A stretch of DNA of 64,000 nucleotides, taken from assembly GCA_022822135.1 (NCBI GenBank), contig JAJECH010000004.1:1-64000 (forward strand). The letters run 5' to 3'. Each line of letters opens with the position of its first letter. The first letter of the stretch is position 1. Below, piece by piece: positions 27,754 through 35,130 of the stretch. The stretch is from Pseudomonadales bacterium (GTDB lineage Bacteria > Pseudomonadota > Gammaproteobacteria > Pseudomonadales > Azotimanducaceae). The notes beneath the pieces are model-generated. The model did not search any database. It was not told where the DNA came from and saw only the letters and a program-made list of their open reading frames with translations. Position numbers and translations under genes: made by a program.

Positions 27754-27878
27754 CTCATGTCTCTCTTTTCTCTTCACGCTCGCAAAGATAAACGCCTTCG
27801 CGACACGTTGTGTCGCAAGTAAAAATGGACTTGGACAAGAAGTACAGTTGCGGTATGCAACTCTAGGAACTAAGCGAC

Positions 27879-28421
27879 ATGGCAAAGGACCGACCACGTA
27901 TCGACCGCGTAACGACAACCAGTGGCGACCTCGGCGAAACCAGCCTTGCGGACGGCACGCGACACGACAAAGGCAGTCCGCGCATGGAGCTCGTCGGCGC
28001 GTTAGATGAGCTCAACTGTGACTTAGGCTCAGCGGCGCTAGTGCTCGAAGATGAGTTGCTTGATGAAATCAGACTAATTCAAGCGCGCGTATTCGACGTA
28101 GGCGCCGCAGTCGCAACCGGTAAACCGCAACCATTCTGGGCGCGTGAAACTGAACGGCTTACTGACGTGACCGAGACCCTCAACTCGAAGCTCGAACCTC
28201 TTGCGGAATTCGTGCTACCCGGTGGTAACGAACCAAATGCGCGTCTGCACATCGCACGCGCAACTACGCGGCGATGCGAGCGTGTGTTTTGGCGCTTGGA
28301 TGACTCGGTTCTAATCGGAGCATCCATCGGCGCATTTCTCAACCGGCTCTCGGATTTCCTTTTCGTTGCCTCACGGAGTGTGTGCGAAGATGAGGTACTT
28401 TGGCAGCCACTGAAGGACTAG
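27879..28421 (+). CDS. PduO-type ATP:cob(I)alamin adenosyltransferase-like protein
   Basis: A 180-residue protein with the family's N-terminal TTxxGDxGxTxLxDGxR pattern (here TTSGDLGETSLADGTR), the VGALDELN segment near residue 40, and the C-terminal TTRRCERVFWRL and FLNRLSDFLFV motifs that form the ATP and cobalamin sites. It would make adenosylcobalamin. The loop after the N-terminal motif differs a little from textbook members (HDKGSPR). No cobalamin-dependent enzyme or B12 riboswitch is visible nearby. Confidence 0.85.
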   Translation: MAKDRPRIDRVTTTSGDLGETSLADGTRHDKGSPRMELVGALDELNCDLGSAALVLEDELLDEIRLIQARVFDVGAAVATGKPQPFWARETERLTDVTETLNSKLEPLAEFVLPGGNEPNARLHIARATTRRCERVFWRLDDSVLIGASIGAFLNRLSDFLFVASRSVCEDEVLWQPLKD

Positions 28422-28430
28422 CAGCGGCAC

Positions 28431-28718
28431 TCATGACGCGCTTAAGTTGTCGCGAATCTCGTATTCAATGAAACCAAGTTGACGCATTTCGCGCGCAAGG
28501 CGATTAAGGTCCTGCCACTCACGACGGTTTTTTCGGACGCTCACCAACGAGTGCATCGCGCCGTCGATCGGAATCGCCACCGCCCAAGCAAGCGGTTTCG
28601 CATCCATATCCGCCAGATTTCCACCACGTACCGAACGATGTACCCGGTACACGAGCGGCTTCCCTATCGCATGGCGATTCGCATCGATGTCCGTTGTCAA
28701 AATCGTTTTAGGATCCAC
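28431..28718 (-). CDS. small uncharacterised protein
   Basis: A protein of about 95 residues, soluble in appearance, convergent with the adenosyltransferase gene. The GTG at 28718 has GGAG just upstream (MDPKTILTTDID); a TTG at 28739 is an alternative. It contains LAWAVAIPIDGAMHSLVSV and ends IEYEIRDNLSAS. The amino-acid make-up is like a real protein and the opposite strand offers nothing better. No family recognised. Confidence 0.5.
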   Translation of the reverse strand: MDPKTILTTDIDANRHAIGKPLVYRVHRSVRGGNLADMDAKPLAWAVAIPIDGAMHSLVSVRKNRREWQDLNRLAREMRQLGFIEYEIRDNLSAS

Positions 28719-28874
28719 ACAACACTCCGCAAGAGCCAAACATCATGGTTAATGGTGTAGTACAATATGAAAATGTACCGACATCATTACCAAAACTGTT
28801 ACAACCAAACCACACTATTTCATTAAATGTATGATAGCGACTAACGTCCATCGTGAAAGAGGAGTTGCCCCAAT

Positions 28875-30524
28875 ATGTTGAAGTCACTAATCGCCGGTCT
28901 ATTTACGACGATCCTGGTCGTCGGTGTCGCATACGACGCCGATGCGCGACGGTTCGGTGGATCGTTTAAGTTCAGCAGCGCTCGAAGCTACAAAGCACCA
29001 GCGTTCAAGAGCTTCTCACGTAAGACAACACCGCGTCCGAAAGCCACGACTAGTCGACCCACTTCACAGTCGGCAACATCCCGCCAGCGCTCCGGTGGTT
29101 TTGGTGGTGCGACGCGTGCCGGGTCAACGACCGGCGCAGCAAGCAGAGCGTCTACTTCGACGCGTTTTGCACGTGCGCCGACCAACAACTTCCGAAGTAC
29201 ACGACAACAAAACGCGTATCGCAACTACCAGTCGCAACATCAAAGTAAATTCCGAGGCACGACGACTAACACGGGACGCGCCACGTCTTCATCGCCACTT
29301 TATCAGCGCGCGTCGCAAAACTCCGGGCGGACGCGCAACGATTACTGGCAACGGCGTGACGGCTTCTACGGCGGCTGGGACACCCCCGGTTACGTCTACA
29401 TGGGAGCACCGCGTTACGGTATGTTTGACGGCTTGTTTCTGGGGTACATGCTCGGCCACGCGTTCACGCCACACTACTCAGCTTTCGCCTACCACCATCA
29501 GAACGATCCAGGCATGAAGGAATGGATGGCTGAAATGGAAAGTCAAGCAACTGAAAACGCCGAGATTAAGGCACAGCTTGACGCGCTCAAAGCAGAAATG
29601 GCGAAACTCGAAGGCACGCCAATCGACCCGACGTACCTACCAATCGGCGTCGACCCTGATATGGTGTTTGCACCAGAAGTCGTTCGTTCACTCGCGCCGA
29701 CATTTAAGTTGTGCACCGCACGAGCGGAAGGTAATTACCATCGTTTCGGCGAGATTGTGAAACAGCAAGCAGGAGACCGCGTATTGATCGAAATCGTCAA
29801 TACGAACGGCTCGATGCAAAACCTCGAATTCATGGAGAACGGCACATGCGACGGCGCATACGTGCAGCGGAACGCATTCGGCGTCTACGCGGAACGAAAC
29901 CCCTCTGGCGGTTTCAAGTTCGAACGTGTCGCTACGCCAGCGGTTGAGTTTGCCCACATGATCTGCAATCGAGACAGCGACATTGATGATGTCGGTGATC
30001 TACCCGGCAAGACCTTGTTGGTCGATGTCGTGGGATCAGGCACAGAACTTACCTGGAGCGAGTTCGTCTATATGGACGACACGTATGCCGCTGTGAACAC
30101 TCGAAACGTCGGCGGTACGACTGCACTGAATCGTGTCGCCAATGGTGAAGCGGACTGCATGCTTTTTGTCGCATCGCTCAACACGCAATTACTGCAACGG
30201 GCAAACTCGCTCGGCGATGATGTCGTGCTGGTTCCAGTTAACGATTGGGATTTCAACGACATGGAGTATGGTCACGGCAAGCTCTTTCAAGGCCATCAAG
30301 ACCCCTCCGGTGAGGACGTCTATGTTTTCCTCGATATCCCTGACGATCAGTATCCAGAGATACAAGACGGACTCATTTTTTCCGAAGTGGAAACGTTGAC
30401 AGTACCCGTCGATATGGTGGCGAGTCTAGGATGGCGTGACGAAAACGCACAAGCCTACGACGCATTTCTTGGTACCGTACTCGATGCCCAACCCGCGATC
30501 GATGACTTGACTCGCGAGCACTGA
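28875..30524 (+). CDS. exported low-complexity protein with a TAXI-type solute-binding domain
   Basis: A 549-residue protein. A signal peptide covers residues 1-25 (AYDADA). Residues 26-150 are a basic Ser/Thr/Arg/Gly-rich low-complexity tract. A Tyr/Trp/Gly-rich segment (about 150-215) contains GYMLGHAF, and a short coiled coil (about 220-255) follows. The rest resembles TAXI-type TRAP solute-binding proteins: YHRFGEIVKQQ, then NGSMQNLEFMENGTCDGAYVQ, then DLPGKTLLVDVVGSGTE. The ligand is unknown. AGGAG lies about 11 bases before the ATG. It opens the co-directional run that contains DUF2491, PspA-like and ligand-gated-channel genes. Confidence 0.75.
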   Translation: MLKSLIAGLFTTILVVGVAYDADARRFGGSFKFSSARSYKAPAFKSFSRKTTPRPKATTSRPTSQSATSRQRSGGFGGATRAGSTTGAASRASTSTRFARAPTNNFRSTRQQNAYRNYQSQHQSKFRGTTTNTGRATSSSPLYQRASQNSGRTRNDYWQRRDGFYGGWDTPGYVYMGAPRYGMFDGLFLGYMLGHAFTPHYSAFAYHHQNDPGMKEWMAEMESQATENAEIKAQLDALKAEMAKLEGTPIDPTYLPIGVDPDMVFAPEVVRSLAPTFKLCTARAEGNYHRFGEIVKQQAGDRVLIEIVNTNGSMQNLEFMENGTCDGAYVQRNAFGVYAERNPSGGFKFERVATPAVEFAHMICNRDSDIDDVGDLPGKTLLVDVVGSGTELTWSEFVYMDDTYAAVNTRNVGGTTALNRVANGEADCMLFVASLNTQLLQRANSLGDDVVLVPVNDWDFNDMEYGHGKLFQGHQDPSGEDVYVFLDIPDDQYPEIQDGLIFSEVETLTVPVDMVASLGWRDENAQAYDAFLGTVLDAQPAIDDLTREH

Positions 30525-30566
30525 GCGTCGCCACCAAATGTCTATTTCACGATTGAGTCGTCCGCG

Positions 30567-31328
30567 ATGTCGATGAAGCAGTATTTGCGCTTGAAGGTCC
30601 AAGCAGCGAAGGATCGCTGGTCAGGCGATGGCAAGGAGAAAGTCCGGGTCGACGGTGAATTGCCTTTAAATCTACGGATCGGATCCCGCGTGCAGTTTGC
30701 AGAAGCGCCATTTCTATTGGCGGGAGATGCGACCCACGTGCCATATCCAGGTACTGAGACCTTGCTTGCCGCATTCAGCGAAGTCGAGCTTGCCGGAATG
30801 AAAACTTTCCGACTCTATCTAGACTCCCGCGACGACACGGACGAGAGCGTCATGTTGATGCTGTTGATGGATGACGGCGGTGATTACGTCGACGAGCGAT
30901 ACGTGTTCCATGAGCAATACGAAATCCCGCTTTATCACGTCTCTCTTGCCGACGTGCCCGAACATGAAGATGAGACCTCGGCTGTCGATTTCTGGCTCGC
31001 AAAGAATGAAGGTATTCTCGGAATGCCTCTCTTTCATACGCCGGAGGAATCAACCTACGAACGATTGTGGGAAGCGGATCAAGATATTTGGCTGAAACCG
31101 GCTGCTCTGACCGAAACGATCACGCTCGACCCGTACGGCGAAGGTCGAACGGACGTTGAACATCTCGGCACCATGCTTTTCGCGCGAGTATTTGACGGGT
31201 TAGGTGGAGTCGAGACGCAGGAGTATCTGTTGCCAACCGTCGAACGCGACACCGATGGCTTTCGGGTTCGAATCTGGGTAGGGCTACCACTCGCCGCCAA
31301 CGACCTGGAGCTGCCCGATGCTATCTAA
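30567..31328 (+). CDS. DUF2491 (YjfK) family protein
   Basis: A 253-residue soluble protein. The LPLNLRIGSRV segment near residue 29, LLMDDGGDYVDERYVFH in the middle and the RVFDGLGG.QEYLLP region near the end match YjfK/DUF2491 proteins. In E. coli yjfK lies in the yjfIJKL operon beside the PspA-like yjfJ; the same pairing is seen here, since the next gene encodes a PspA-like protein 45 bases on. Biochemical function is unknown; the family is linked to membrane-stress loci by context. Confidence 0.85.
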   Translation: MSMKQYLRLKVQAAKDRWSGDGKEKVRVDGELPLNLRIGSRVQFAEAPFLLAGDATHVPYPGTETLLAAFSEVELAGMKTFRLYLDSRDDTDESVMLMLLMDDGGDYVDERYVFHEQYEIPLYHVSLADVPEHEDETSAVDFWLAKNEGILGMPLFHTPEESTYERLWEADQDIWLKPAALTETITLDPYGEGRTDVEHLGTMLFARVFDGLGGVETQEYLLPTVERDTDGFRVRIWVGLPLAANDLELPDAI

Positions 31329-31373
31329 AACAGAGTTTATTTCACTCAACATGCACACAAGGAGGATGCAATC

Positions 31374-32141
31374 GTGCTAGACAAACTCGCATTCTGGAAG
31401 AACTATGGGGAAGGCAAACTGGCTGATGCTGGCGACGCCATCTTGACTGGTATGGTCAAACTCGACCCAGAAGGTACGTCCAAAGCTGAGATCGCGGCGG
31501 AACGAGAGAAGTTCGAGAAGTTCGCGCTCGAAGTCGAGGACTATCGTGTGACGTACAACCGCGAAGCCGCAGAGGCAGAAGCGGCACGCAATGCGTACAA
31601 CAAGAAGATGGATCAAATCCGCGCACTCGAAGATGCCGCCGCCGCGAGCCCTGAAAAAGCTGACAAACTATCCCTCGCTGCTGACAAGCTCAAAGCGGAA
31701 GCAGCAGAGCTACTAGCGAGCGCTCGCACCGAGATCGAAGAAGCCGAAATGGCGAAGCAAGACCTCGACGAAGTTGAAGCCATTCAGGAAGAAATGGCTG
31801 AAACGATCAAGATGCTCGAGTCGAATCTCAAGAAGGCTCAAGCGGAAATGGAACGGGCGAAGCGTGCAGAAAGTCGTGCGAATAAGCGCGCGCAGCACCA
31901 GGAGCGGTTAGCAGGTATACGCACTGGCAGCACGAATTTAGGTGTTGCTTCCAAAGTCATGCAGGAACAAGCTGAGAAGTCGCGCCAAGCGGCGAACGCC
32001 GCAAACCGTCGTGCTGAATTGTTAGGCGACGCGCGCGAAAAGAAAGATCCAGCGTTTGAGGATGCTGACGTGGCCGCCGTGCTTGCGGGTGTAGACGAAG
32101 CGGACAAGCCACCGGCTCCCGACCTGCCAGACAAGCTTTAA
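31374..32141 (+). CDS. PspA/IM30 (YjfJ)-like coiled-coil protein
   Basis: A 255-residue protein that is almost wholly alpha-helical. Residues 45-190 form long Ala/Glu/Lys-rich coiled coils, and the C-terminal tail is Pro/Asp-rich (DKPPAPDLPDKL). The N-terminus MLDKLAFWKNYGEGK may be an amphipathic membrane-binding helix. This is the make-up of the PspA/IM30 superfamily, which coats and remodels stressed membranes. A very strong AAGGAGG at 31361-31367 precedes the GTG start, so high expression is likely. Sequence alone makes this a good but not certain family call; DUF2491 next door supports it. Confidence 0.75.
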   Translation: MLDKLAFWKNYGEGKLADAGDAILTGMVKLDPEGTSKAEIAAEREKFEKFALEVEDYRVTYNREAAEAEAARNAYNKKMDQIRALEDAAAASPEKADKLSLAADKLKAEAAELLASARTEIEEAEMAKQDLDEVEAIQEEMAETIKMLESNLKKAQAEMERAKRAESRANKRAQHQERLAGIRTGSTNLGVASKVMQEQAEKSRQAANAANRRAELLGDAREKKDPAFEDADVAAVLAGVDEADKPPAPDLPDKL

Positions 32142-32188
32142 GCCACGACGAACTTCGCGTTGGGTTCTTTCATCGTATTTAGCTTGAA

Positions 32189-32347
32189 ATGAAGAAGTCG
32201 GTTTGGTACGTACTCGGTGTCGTCGTAGGCGGGGCACTGCTCTATTTCATTCTCGGCTGGGTCACCAGCTTGTTGACCATCATGGCGCTCACTATCGTGG
32301 TGTTTGCGGTCTTCATGTTTGTGCGGAGGCGTTTGAATAAGAGATGA
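32189..32347 (+). CDS. small two-helix membrane protein (52 aa)
   Basis: A 52-residue protein with the sequence order MKKSVWYVLG, a first hydrophobic helix (VVVGGALLYFILGW), a short turn, and a second helix (about residues 29-45), ending in the basic tail VRRRLNKR. The positively charged tail suggests a cytoplasmic C-terminus. It sits 47 bases after the PspA-like gene and 19 before the next small membrane gene, in the same direction. The ribosome-binding site is weak. Its fit between the operon genes is the main support. No family recognised. Confidence 0.6.
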   Translation: MKKSVWYVLGVVVGGALLYFILGWVTSLLTIMALTIVVFAVFMFVRRRLNKR

Positions 32348-32366
32348 CGCGCACAGGAGAAGAAAC

Positions 32367-32576
32367 ATGGAGATCCTAGTGGCTGTCTTGGCAATTGTCG
32401 GGATACTGATATTTGCTGCGGCGCGTGTCCTCTATGTCACCGTGCTTGCGGTGGGCATTGCACTGGCGGTGATCCTACTAAGTCTCGCTGGCATCGGCTA
32501 CGCTTTGGCAGTCATCGTAGTCTTCGCAGGCTATCTCGTCATCGAGTGCATCAAATACCGAAACTCAACCAGCTAG
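32367..32576 (+). CDS. small membrane protein (69 aa)
   Basis: A 69-residue, very hydrophobic protein with two or three membrane helices and a short polar tail (IECIKYRNSTS). AGGAGAAG precedes the ATG by about five bases, a good ribosome site. PspA-family operons often carry such small membrane partners, in the manner of PspB, PspC and PspD, but no sequence family is recognised here. Confidence 0.7.
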   Translation: MEILVAVLAIVGILIFAAARVLYVTVLAVGIALAVILLSLAGIGYALAVIVVFAGYLVIECIKYRNSTS

Positions 32577-32600
32577 AAGGCATCTAGACGATGGATCGAA

Positions 32601-33626
32601 TTGGCTAGATTTTTGATTATTCGACTTACGCTCACCCTAGCCTTCGTCCTCGGTAGCTCTTTCCTACTCGCCGCAGAACCAATCCGCGTTGTTGCGAGCG
32701 AGCTACCACCTTGCGTCATTGCAAGTGATGAATTGAATGGCTTCTCAATCGAGCTTTGGGAAGCCATGGCAGATGAACTTCAGCTCAACTACGAAGTCTC
32801 CCTGCTCGGCTTCGACGAGAAACTCGAAGCGCTAAAAACCGGGAACGCCGACGCCGCAATCGGTTGCATCAGCGTGTCTGCCGATCGCGAGCAGGACATG
32901 GACTTCACCCATGCCATAACCACCAACGGATTCTCAGCGGCAAGCTTGATCGAAGCCAGCCTGATTCCGAATTTCAGCGACGAAAGTCTGAAGATGCTCC
33001 TGCTTCTTTTGCTGTTCGTCGTTGTCTTTGCACACCTGATGTGGTGGTCGGAGCATGGGCAGTCTGCTATCAGTGACCGGTATTTCCCAGGCGTTTTTCA
33101 ATCCATCTGGTTTAGTTTGGTCACGATGTCCACCGTAGGCTACGGTGATATCGCACCGCAACGATGGTTGGGTCGCATCAGTGCGGCTTTGTTGATCTTA
33201 ACTGGCGTGACCGCCTTTGGCGTGATTTTCAGCCAATTCGCTGCAGATGCAATCGGGCAACGTGCAGCAAAACCGGTTCAGTCCGTGAGTGACCTTCGAA
33301 CGTACTCGATTGGCACAAAAGAAGGAACTGCCGCTGAGCTATATCTGAACGCGCTCGGCGTGGAAACGAAGGCGCATGCTGATCTCGTTGAAGCCGCTGA
33401 ATCCATGCGCGAAGGGTCCGTCGATGTGGTGATGCACGACACACTCGCGATCACGCATTTGGTTCACAATACCGACGACTTAGTTATGACCGGTCCAAGG
33501 TTTTCACCTCACTACATAGGGATCGCGCTACAAGAATCGTCGCCGCTACGCGAATCCCTCAACGCAACACTGCTGAAACTGCAAGCCGATGGTCGGTACC
33601 AAGCGATACACGATCGTTGGTTCTAA
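32601..33626 (+). CDS. ligand-gated potassium channel with split solute-binding domain (GluR0-like ionotropic receptor)
   Basis: A 341-residue protein. A signal peptide (about 1-24) is followed by the first lobe of an amino-acid-type solute-binding domain (EPIRVVASELPPCV to about 125). A membrane helix comes next (MLLLLLLFVVVFAHLMWW, about 132-150), then a pore loop with the potassium filter TVGYGD near residue 177, a second helix (about 190-210), and the second binding lobe to the C-terminus. This order is that of prokaryotic ionotropic glutamate receptors such as Synechocystis GluR0. It should open potassium flow when a small ligand binds outside. The start is a TTG. It closes the DUF2491/PspA-like run, 24 bases after the small membrane gene. 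Confidence 0.88.
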   Translation: MARFLIIRLTLTLAFVLGSSFLLAAEPIRVVASELPPCVIASDELNGFSIELWEAMADELQLNYEVSLLGFDEKLEALKTGNADAAIGCISVSADREQDMDFTHAITTNGFSAASLIEASLIPNFSDESLKMLLLLLLFVVVFAHLMWWSEHGQSAISDRYFPGVFQSIWFSLVTMSTVGYGDIAPQRWLGRISAALLILTGVTAFGVIFSQFAADAIGQRAAKPVQSVSDLRTYSIGTKEGTAAELYLNALGVETKAHADLVEAAESMREGSVDVVMHDTLAITHLVHNTDDLVMTGPRFSPHYIGIALQESSPLRESLNATLLKLQADGRYQAIHDRWF

Positions 33627-33754
33627 ACTGACCTCACGTAATTCGCGAGCAGTCAATCTCACGTATTTCCCTCGAGAACTTGCGTCCCTGTCAATAAACG
33701 CGCCATTTCGTGACGTGGATCGTTAGGGTTTTACGGGTGAAAAACAAATCTCAC

Positions 33755-33772
33755 TGATCCGACTACGGATCA
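33755..33772. other. perfect 7-bp hairpin after the channel gene
   Basis: TGATCCG, an ACTA loop, then CGGATCA. No T-run follows on the plus strand, so it is not a standard terminator for the channel operon; it could be a processed 3' end or an operator for the gene at 33833. Confidence 0.35.
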
Positions 33773-33832
33773 CATTGAGGATTTACGAGAAGAAGCGCTG
33801 TCGTAATTGAAGCAACAGCTACATTCGAGGAC

Positions 33833-34192
33833 ATGATCGACCCAACGCACGAATATCACGATCGCATCAACGCACTTATGTCCGACGCAGCGACAGAAGG
33901 TATACGTCCTCAGGAAGAGTCTTTATGTGAATTCGCTAGGTTTACTCGATACGCACCCTATCCAATGAAACTAGGTTCGCTAATTCTTTTGGACGATGGA
34001 ATGTTCTCAGCGGTTTGGCGTAACGATCGTTGGCGTTTAAATCTGAAATTCTGGGCAGATGGCACCATTGAATATGTGCTTCTAGATCGAAATTCGACTC
34101 CAACTTCGGGCGATACAGGTCTACTTACAGATCGTCATGCCTTCGATGAACTATCTACGAAATACGGTCTTCAGTCGTTACTTCGAGAATGA
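33833..34192 (+). CDS. uncharacterised soluble protein (119 aa)
   Basis: A 119-residue protein with no signal peptide or membrane helix. The central part, including MFSAVWRNDRWRLNLKFW and then GTIEYVLLDRN, alternates hydrophobic and charged residues as in a beta-sheet domain. I do not recognise the family. It lies 206 bases after the channel gene and converges on the SDR gene, so it seems to be a single transcription unit. Confidence 0.6.
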   Translation: MIDPTHEYHDRINALMSDAATEGIRPQEESLCEFARFTRYAPYPMKLGSLILLDDGMFSAVWRNDRWRLNLKFWADGTIEYVLLDRNSTPTSGDTGLLTDRHAFDELSTKYGLQSLLRE

Positions 34193-34239
34193 GCGAAACC
34201 CGCGAATCAATGTTGCCTTTCGTCAATAACGATGTCTCT

Positions 34240-35130
34240 TTAAGCAGTCCCTGCTTCTGCGTCGCGCTTTTCCCACATTTCCCGCATCTGTTTCGCCGTG
34301 CCAACATGATCACCTTTAACGGCGAGCATGCCACCATCCACAACAAGGTCGATACCCGTTACCCAACGGCTTTCATCGCTTCCCAGGTACACACACGCAT
34401 ACGCGATATCGCTTGCTTCGCCTCCAGGTCCGGTCAACGGCATTAACCCGCCGCTAACGTTGCGGACGAATCGCGCCAAGCGGTTTTTCTTATGTTCCGC
34501 CGTGATTTGTTGACCGTGTGTGTGACCTCCCCAGAAGATCGGCGTGGCGATCGCACCGGGACTGACTGCATTCACACGTATACCCAGAGGTCCCAGTTGC
34601 ATAGCAGCGGCTTTCGTGTAGTTCGACAGACCTGCTTTAGCGGCCGAATAGAGTGGATCTGCGGCAACTTCCGCTTGGTGCGCACCTTTCGACGAGTTAT
34701 TGATGATCGAACCTGATTGTTGTCTGCGCATGATGGGAGACACAAGCTTCGTTGCGACCATACAGGTACCCAATAAGTACCACTGGGAGTACTTGAAACT
34801 CTCCTCATCAACGTCTTCTATGTTGAAAGCGTGAGGGCGACCTGGGATCGCCGATGAACCACCCGCATTATTGAACAGTACATCAATACGACCCCACTTT
34901 TCGACAGCAGTATTGATGACCTTTGCGATCTCTTCCTCGTGTAACACATCCGCCTTCACAAATACAGCGGTGCCGTCAGGTTGTCTAGCTTCAACTTCCG
35001 CCCCGAACTCTTCGTTTCGACCGCAAAACACGACCTTTGCGCCTTCTGCACAGTATGCGTCAACGGTAGCCTCGCCAATACCACTGGTTGCGCCGGTAAT
35101 GACCGCAATCTTTCCGTCTAGTCTCCCCAT
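34240..35130 (-). CDS. short-chain dehydrogenase/reductase
   Basis: A 296-residue NAD(P)-dependent SDR. TGATSGIG is near residue 13, NNAGG near 89, a catalytic Ser in NNSSKG near 147, and YSAAK near 162. The usual C-terminal VTGIDLVVDGG is present, and a 25-residue extension rich in Met, Lys and Glu follows it. AGGAA precedes the ATG. It lies 32 bases downstream of the enoyl-CoA hydratase gene, and the two probably act in one pathway for degrading an acyl-CoA or related compound. Confidence 0.88.
   Translation of the reverse strand: MGRLDGKIAVITGATSGIGEATVDAYCAEGAKVVFCGRNEEFGAEVEARQPDGTAVFVKADVLHEEEIAKVINTAVEKWGRIDVLFNNAGGSSAIPGRPHAFNIEDVDEESFKYSQWYLLGTCMVATKLVSPIMRRQQSGSIINNSSKGAHQAEVAADPLYSAAKAGLSNYTKAAAMQLGPLGIRVNAVSPGAIATPIFWGGHTHGQQITAEHKKNRLARFVRNVSGGLMPLTGPGGEASDIAYACVYLGSDESRWVTGIDLVVDGGMLAVKGDHVGTAKQMREMWEKRDAEAGTA

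Follow-up and report, generated by a model that had tools for sequence, protein, structure and literature searches.

A conserved operon combining a GluR0-type potassium channel, a TAXI-like protein and a DUF2491 protein in a Pseudomonadales bacterium

We describe here an operon from a Pseudomonadales bacterium of the family Azotimanducaceae (GCA_022822135.1). The window analysed is a stretch of 64,000 nucleotides, positions 1 to 64,000 of contig JAJECH010000004.1, and all positions given for it refer to this stretch. The operon consists of six open reading frames (ORFs) on the same strand, designated A to F. Lengths are in amino acids (aa), and NTD is the name used here for a domain within A.

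28875..30524, + strand: A, 549 aa, exported, with a signal-peptide-like N-terminus, an Arg/Ser/Thr-rich stretch, NTD and a C-terminal TAXI-like domain
29322..29684, + strand: the part of A coding for NTD, the same domain that is fused to a transmembrane helix and DUF2491 in other bacteria
30567..31328, + strand: B, a DUF2491 protein of 253 aa
31374..32141, + strand: C, a helical protein of 255 aa with a PspA/Vipp1-like predicted layout
32189..32347, + strand: D, 52 aa, with two hydrophobic segments
32367..32576, + strand: E, 69 aa, very hydrophobic, with three hydrophobic segments
32601..33626, + strand: F, a GluR0-type channel with a signal-peptide-like start, lobe 1, M1, a P-loop with TVGYGD, M2 and lobe 2

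The gaps between the six ORFs are 42, 45, 47, 19 and 24 bases. This agrees with the original prediction for this locus, made from the DNA letters, of six co-directional genes separated by 19–47 bases. It is concluded that the six-gene operon is real, and that its core is composed of A, B, C and F. Pfam and NCBIfam profiles were run on the operon proteins, and signal and transmembrane stretches were assigned with a hydropathy script only. No Pfam or NCBIfam family matches C, D or E above its curated cut-off, and neither B nor C has a signal-peptide-like or transmembrane stretch by hydropathy. A scan of positions 27800–34300 for sigma-70 promoters gave none, where 4.5 would be expected by chance.

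The order A-B-C-F is identical in all eight loci that were found, with protein identities of 50–98%, and the arrangement is far from chance. A search for C among 97 relatives returned seven genomes, including that of the window, all of one genus. A scan for C in a genome-contig collection covering 84,980 species, which used two peptide patterns only and therefore misses more distant relatives of C, gave seven loci. The one locus beyond the genus genomes belongs to Candidatus Azophilus lithoversatilis (Pseudomonadales, Ca. Azotimanducaceae), the eighth case, which has A-B-C-F and a D-like ORF. Among 18 genomes of the genus, A, B, C and F are found all together in seven and are all missing from 11. 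On a per-gene basis, A and F each occur in the same seven genomes and C occurs in those seven, with absences called at E-values of 1e-10 or below for F and 1e-5 or below for A. B was identified in six genomes by Pfam DUF2491 and in the seventh, G014, by BLASTP (52%); because Pfam missed the G014 copy, the search by which B was called absent in the remaining 11 genomes is a fallible one. In the draft genome G001, A is broken into several frames (L022:2499-4145) and the end of the contig falls within F. The alignments of A and F (n = 7) omit G001, whose copy is either broken or truncated where the contig ends.

C is the best conserved gene of the set, at 92–98% identity in the close clade and 75–77% in G014 and Azophilus. 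In the close clade a cobalamin adenosyltransferase gene flanks the operon. In G014 and Azophilus this gene is not its neighbour, and since the flanking genes differ there, the gene set coheres in more than one setting. Co-occurrence in other genomes, the check proposed with the original prediction, is thus seen both in the genus, as an all-or-none pattern, and in Ca. Azophilus. The two tiny membrane proteins of that prediction do have hydrophobic segments, but they are not equally part of the set. D was matched in six of the eight loci; L038 has a D-like ORF as judged by position and hydrophobicity, and in L037 (G014) D is absent, with no room between C and F. E was considered as a core gene and ruled out, because it was matched in one of the eight loci, that of the window genome, where it sits between D and F.

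F has the domain structure of a glutamate-receptor channel. Its SBP_bac_3 domain (75.4 bits in Pfam) is split by Ion_trans_2 (55.6 bits), such that the two lobes lie around a pore with two transmembrane helices. F aligns with NpGluR0 (2pyy, the second best match among PDB sequences) and with glutamine-binding proteins, and GluR0 (1ii5) was also matched. The filter TVGYGD (T178–D183) and the residues R96 and D280 are invariant in all seven aligned sequences. R96 and D280 align with NpGluR0 and with a glutamine-binding protein, at what we take to be the positions that hold the carboxyl and amino groups of the amino-acid ligand in this family. GluR0 has a TVGYG filter and is gated by glutamate. 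F shares with GluR0 and NpGluR0 the split binding domain, the two-helix pore, the filter and the pocket Arg and Asp, in line with the GluR0-like channel that had been predicted. It differs from them in that its operon also encodes a DUF2491 protein, C and a TAXI protein.

Residues 281–462 of A match NMT1_3 (PF16868) with 36.4 bits against a cut-off of 27, and the TAXI-like domain starts at about residue 274. The N-terminus is hydrophobic at residues 1–19, as judged by hydropathy only. The exported TAXI-type protein of the original prediction is in this respect recognizable, but A scores below the NCBIfam TAXI cut-off (TIGR02122, 47.5 bits against 84.35), and a further domain had been overlooked. 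The contacts of VcGluP with L-glutamate were taken from the available text of PMC11574862 and placed on A by counting along the HMMER alignment. Five are kept and are invariant in seven of seven sequences, namely Y45 (Y288 in A), S75 (S313), Q93 (Q331), E125 (E358) and G156 (G389). The same binding-site Tyr, Ser, Gln, Glu and Gly are common to A and the TAXI solute-binding proteins VcGluP, TtGluBP and BP0403 of TAXI-GltS.

Other contacts are not kept: D157 is changed to T390 in the window, Y200 to F431 (F or Y among the sequences) and M201 to V432, and the side-chain contacts V44, Y46 and H123 are changed to N287, H289 and A356. Moreover, several of the kept residues are common to 4ddd. Glutamate specificity of the TAXI domain was for this reason discarded as something that residues alone could prove, and with contacts changed as well, glutamate is not proven as its ligand. 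The kept residues suggest a working amino-acid-type pocket, rather than one for glutamate alone. Most of the compared pocket residues of A and F are kept, in agreement with the prediction that two small-molecule-binding modules on the outside are encoded in one operon. A differs from the TAXI solute-binding proteins in falling under the NCBIfam cut-off and in having no carrier gene in its operon. No TRAP membrane subunit is found among the operon genes, the rest of the genome not having been searched. BP0403 is, according to the available text of PMC12344293, a long TAXI protein with an extra N-terminal part, as is A, in which the extra part is NTD.

NTD (approximately residues 160–270 of A) is conserved, belongs to no named family and lies ahead of the TAXI-like domain. 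A tblastn search with A against plasmids returned 14 records, two of them matching over the TAXI part only. The other 12 are from Azospirillum and match over residues 167–274 only (35–40% identity, E-values down to 4e-14), and in the five records that have a feature at that position this is a DUF2491-annotated protein. The protein of A. oryzae consists of an N-terminal hydrophobic stretch, a Gly/Ser-rich part, NTD, a transmembrane helix and DUF2491. Downstream of it come DUF350 and then a protein of about 256 aa which aligns with the whole of C (27% over 253 aa, E-value 2e-9, in a single comparison). By tblastn, C gave no match to plasmids at an E-value of 1e-3, which must be regarded as a weak search, because homologues of C exist on those plasmids. 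B itself matches DUF2491 (PF10679) with 51 bits against a cut-off of 25, so that the DUF2491 gene was correctly predicted, and its predicted model is poor (mean predicted local distance difference test score, pLDDT, of 55.4; best Foldseek E-value 0.088).

When loci outside the window's class were scanned with profiles, the NTD-DUF2491 fusion, DUF350 and the C homologue were found in this order in 10 out of 10. These are two from Azospirillum, two from Bosea and six from genomes that share the window's phylum but belong to a different class. The three-gene operon is found at L055:7332-10562 and nine further loci, and is carried on large plasmids in Azospirillum and Bosea. The ten are part of the matches: two of the 12 Azospirillum records were scanned (L056, L058 and L059 were followed by annotation only, and seven were unopened), as were six of the seven genomes matched among relatives of G485, the fragment G838 being left out. 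Some of the profiles contained sequences from L055, L056, L059 or L060. A transmembrane helix and then basic residues lie between NTD and DUF2491 in all ten fusions, nine of which also have the N-terminal hydrophobic stretch. By the positive-inside rule, basic residues are found on the inner side of a transmembrane helix, which would place NTD outside and DUF2491 inside. Since DUF350 and the C homologue come after the fusion at every one of these loci, NTD, DUF2491 and C together form a module that is older than the genus.

NTD is rare. It was found in two of 369 genomes of the window's class (that of the window and a weak one), in two of 398 of the phylum (that of the window and G485) and in seven of 96 relatives of G485. 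As a single query, B also found two of the 369 class genomes, the window's and G396 (32%). The weak NTD-like match in the window's class is at L054 (G135:C31:92641-92850), in another genome, with an E-value of 7.7e-4 within an open frame of 640 aa; the profiles used on the three-gene loci gave no match there at 1e-3. DUF1190, represented by YjfM and ORFs assigned by position, was tried as a relative of the N-terminal part of A and rejected (hhalign 0.5%, HMMER E-value 8), although Gly/Ser-rich stretches and a short motif of hydrophobic residues are common to the two.

The likeness of C to PspA, a further part of the original prediction, lies in its predicted fold and not in its sequence. C has no match to PspA_IM30 (PF04012) at an E-value of 1 or below, against a score of 130.6 bits for the YjfJ-type protein of L025. 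It has no match among PDB sequences at 0.1 or below, and a direct comparison with YjfJ gave nothing convincing. PspA/IM30 proteins have a short N-terminal helix, a long helical hairpin and two further helices. In the AlphaFold2 model of C (mean pLDDT 74.7) there are helices at residues 2–11, 16–28, 32–91, 93–183, 191–222 and 231–243, which matches this layout, with the N-terminal and last helices predicted at low confidence. The long hairpin (32–91 and 93–183) is confident. Foldseek against 350,542 PDB chains placed Vipp1 at all of ranks 1–11 and PspA at ranks 13 and 16, with a best E-value of 0.0035. On the basis of this predicted fold, a distant kinship of C with the PspA/IM30/Vipp1 family (bacterial ESCRT-III) is likely.

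A number of results weigh against this kinship. The model is unsure at residues 1–30 and from about 180 onwards, no Foldseek hit reaches an E-value of 0.001, the TM-scores of ranks 1–11 are low (0.21–0.38), and long helices match by chance easily. An hhalign comparison of 18 C-type with 10 PspA (YjfJ/PspA) sequences gave a probability of 35% and an E-value of 4e-4, in one comparison. HMMER linked two of the 10 PspA sequences to C at E-values below 0.001, with a strong composition bias and with the best match out of register. In addition, an ordinary PspA is present elsewhere in 17 of 18 genus genomes, so that C may do something else. It might accordingly be an unrelated coiled-coil scaffold, not of the PspA/ESCRT-III type, as the missing link to any Pfam family, PDB sequence or single-sequence profile would allow; the scanned C homologues of the three-gene form are likewise without PF04012. 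We consider this rather unlikely, given the run of Vipp1 structures at the top of the Foldseek ranking, the shared helix layout, the profile match to YjfJ-type PspA, weak as it is, and the fact that PspA occupies the same type of locus.

That type of locus has been described in part. The operons of CesT/Tir-PspA group 3 reported in PMC11237479 combine PspA and DUF2491 with DUF350, DUF1190, an ATP-grasp ligase and a K+ channel described as sensing a ligand inside. DUF2491 and "channel" are each named once in the main text, and its account of these operons describes no GluR0-type channel, TAXI or NTD. E. coli yjfIJKLMC is of this group, without the channel. In our own comparison, an ORF with a K+ filter stands beside DUF2491 in at least seven of 12 DUF2491 loci (11 found in genomes, and that of E. 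coli). The count used the filter motif on non-overlapping long ORFs, which can miss cases (L051 is unclear), and for E. coli the annotation. Four channels of related DUF2491 loci were scanned, and have a pore and TrkA-like parts, one of them above the Pfam cut-off.

The window operon resembles group 3 in combining DUF2491 and a K+ channel with a protein of the PspA type, which C is by its predicted fold. It differs in that its channel is of the GluR0 type and senses outside, whereas that of group 3 has weak TrkA-like parts and, in the main text of PMC11237479, senses inside. Its proteins have no Pfam match to DUF2170, DUF350, DUF1190 or ATP-grasp (DUF350 was not sought elsewhere in the genome), C is not PF04012, and a TAXI protein is added. 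The statement in the original prediction that the partners differ from those of the yjf locus therefore holds for the kind of channel, but not for the presence of a K+ channel, which is common in related loci. No recognizable report of the GluR0/TAXI/DUF2491/PspA-like set was found in a literature search that most subscription papers fell outside, and no tested function of DUF2491 was found, the term itself appearing in a single one of 5.39 million papers searched. Operons with PspA, DUF2491 and a K+ channel are already published (PMC11237479, main text); what is new is a channel of the GluR0 type that senses outward, the fusion involving TAXI, and the three-gene form. The operon has the appearance of a known kind of membrane-stress locus in a new version. 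We read it as a variant of the DUF2491 module whose sensing has shifted to the outside, with a GluR0-type channel and an NTD-TAXI fusion, NTD being elsewhere fused to DUF2491.

The reading that we favour, with a little less than even confidence, is that the operon is one envelope system, in which an amino-acid-sensing K+ channel and a TAXI co-sensor would be tied to a module for inner-membrane upkeep. Its starting points are seen directly: the gene set and its co-inheritance, the NTD-DUF2491 fusions across a transmembrane helix, the channel filter and the pocket residues. The pairing of PspA, DUF2491 and a K+ channel in related loci also speaks for it. Outside the inner membrane, A, through its TAXI domain, and F, through its split domain, would each bind a small molecule, with a glutamate- or glutamine-type amino acid as the most likely candidate, and F would be a K+ channel that this ligand opens. 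NTD would stay in the periplasm near the membrane and work with B inside; in Azospirillum, Bosea and others a single protein carries both, with a transmembrane helix between them. B may then work with C, which as a PspA/Vipp1-like (ESCRT-III-like) protein would coat or repair the inner membrane, and F would replace DUF350, the membrane protein that the three-gene form has instead.

Besides the points raised above on C and on the ligand of the TAXI domain, three observations count against this reading. The seven genus genomes are not seven independent events, six of them being close kin: a flanking protein is 60–86% identical to that of the window in these six and 50–55% in the other 12, G014 included, so that there are about three lineages and not eight independent cases. 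A K+ filter motif occurs in none of the 10 three-gene loci (ORFs of at least 100 aa). Finally, the locus of G396 (L051) has DUF350 beside DUF2491, and yet no match to NTD or C. A stronger version, doubtful at present, would make the channel the sensor of an ESCRT-III-like coat: an outside amino acid bound by F, and by TAXI as co-receptor, would alter K+ flux, a relay across the membrane through NTD and DUF2491 would switch the assembly of C as a new PspA-like protein, and the three-gene operon would be the channel-less form of the same unnamed system.

An osmotic function, or one in K+/glutamate balance, would also account for a GluR0-like channel and amino-acid-type pockets. Here the binding modules would report outside glutamate and K+ would follow through the channel, with B and C only stabilizing the membrane and not coupled directly, a division of labour with which the ordinary PspA kept elsewhere in the genomes is in keeping. 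This is unlikely, in that it leaves unexplained why the three-gene form brings NTD, DUF2491 and C together while having neither channel nor TAXI. Less probable again is a role in uptake, where A would hand its substrate to a carrier encoded elsewhere, somewhat as in TAXI-GltS, with the channel as a side sensor. The available text of PMC12344293 provides the precedent of a long TAXI protein working without a TRAP membrane subunit; set against it, there is no carrier gene among the six of the operon, to which the search was confined, and A is inherited as part of one set with B, C and the channel. A polyamine-linked locus like yjfIJKLMC, with a polyamine or its conjugate as ligand, is suggested by the annotation of E. 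coli yjfC as a peptide-spermidine ligase and by the polyamine genes to which the available text of PMC11237479 ties its operon group, but is very improbable for proteins that match none of the four accompanying families (ATP-grasp, DUF1190, DUF350 and DUF2170) and a channel that retains the Arg and Asp found in amino-acid receptors.

Two further features lie upstream of A.

28431..28739, − strand: a divergent small ORF of 102 codons, kept beside the operon in the genus
28751..28788, no strand: an inverted repeat, AATGRTGT-N22-ACAYCATT, a possible regulator site

The divergent ORF is 88–93% identical in the close clade and 70% identical in L037, beside the operon each time. The flanks of L037 otherwise differ, and this is the sole other long ORF of the window (among those at 23–42 kb) that is kept there. 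It was not found in L038, and searches of Pfam, PDB sequences and plasmids gave no match to it. It is possibly a regulator or partner. The inverted repeat lies between this ORF and A, occurs once in the window, and has the same 38-base form in four of the eight loci (the window, L032, L033 and L035), with changes in both arms; this form is not present in L034 or L036–L038.

To our knowledge, the cellular role of bacterial glutamate-receptor channels is hardly known. The most likely job of the operon would be to sense an amino acid outside and to adjust K+ flux and inner-membrane upkeep, the ligand, its gating of the channel and the coupling between them being the steps that we infer. The conserved set gives both these channels and DUF2491 a testable setting, and the Azospirillum fusion offers the three-gene form in a cultivable bacterium.

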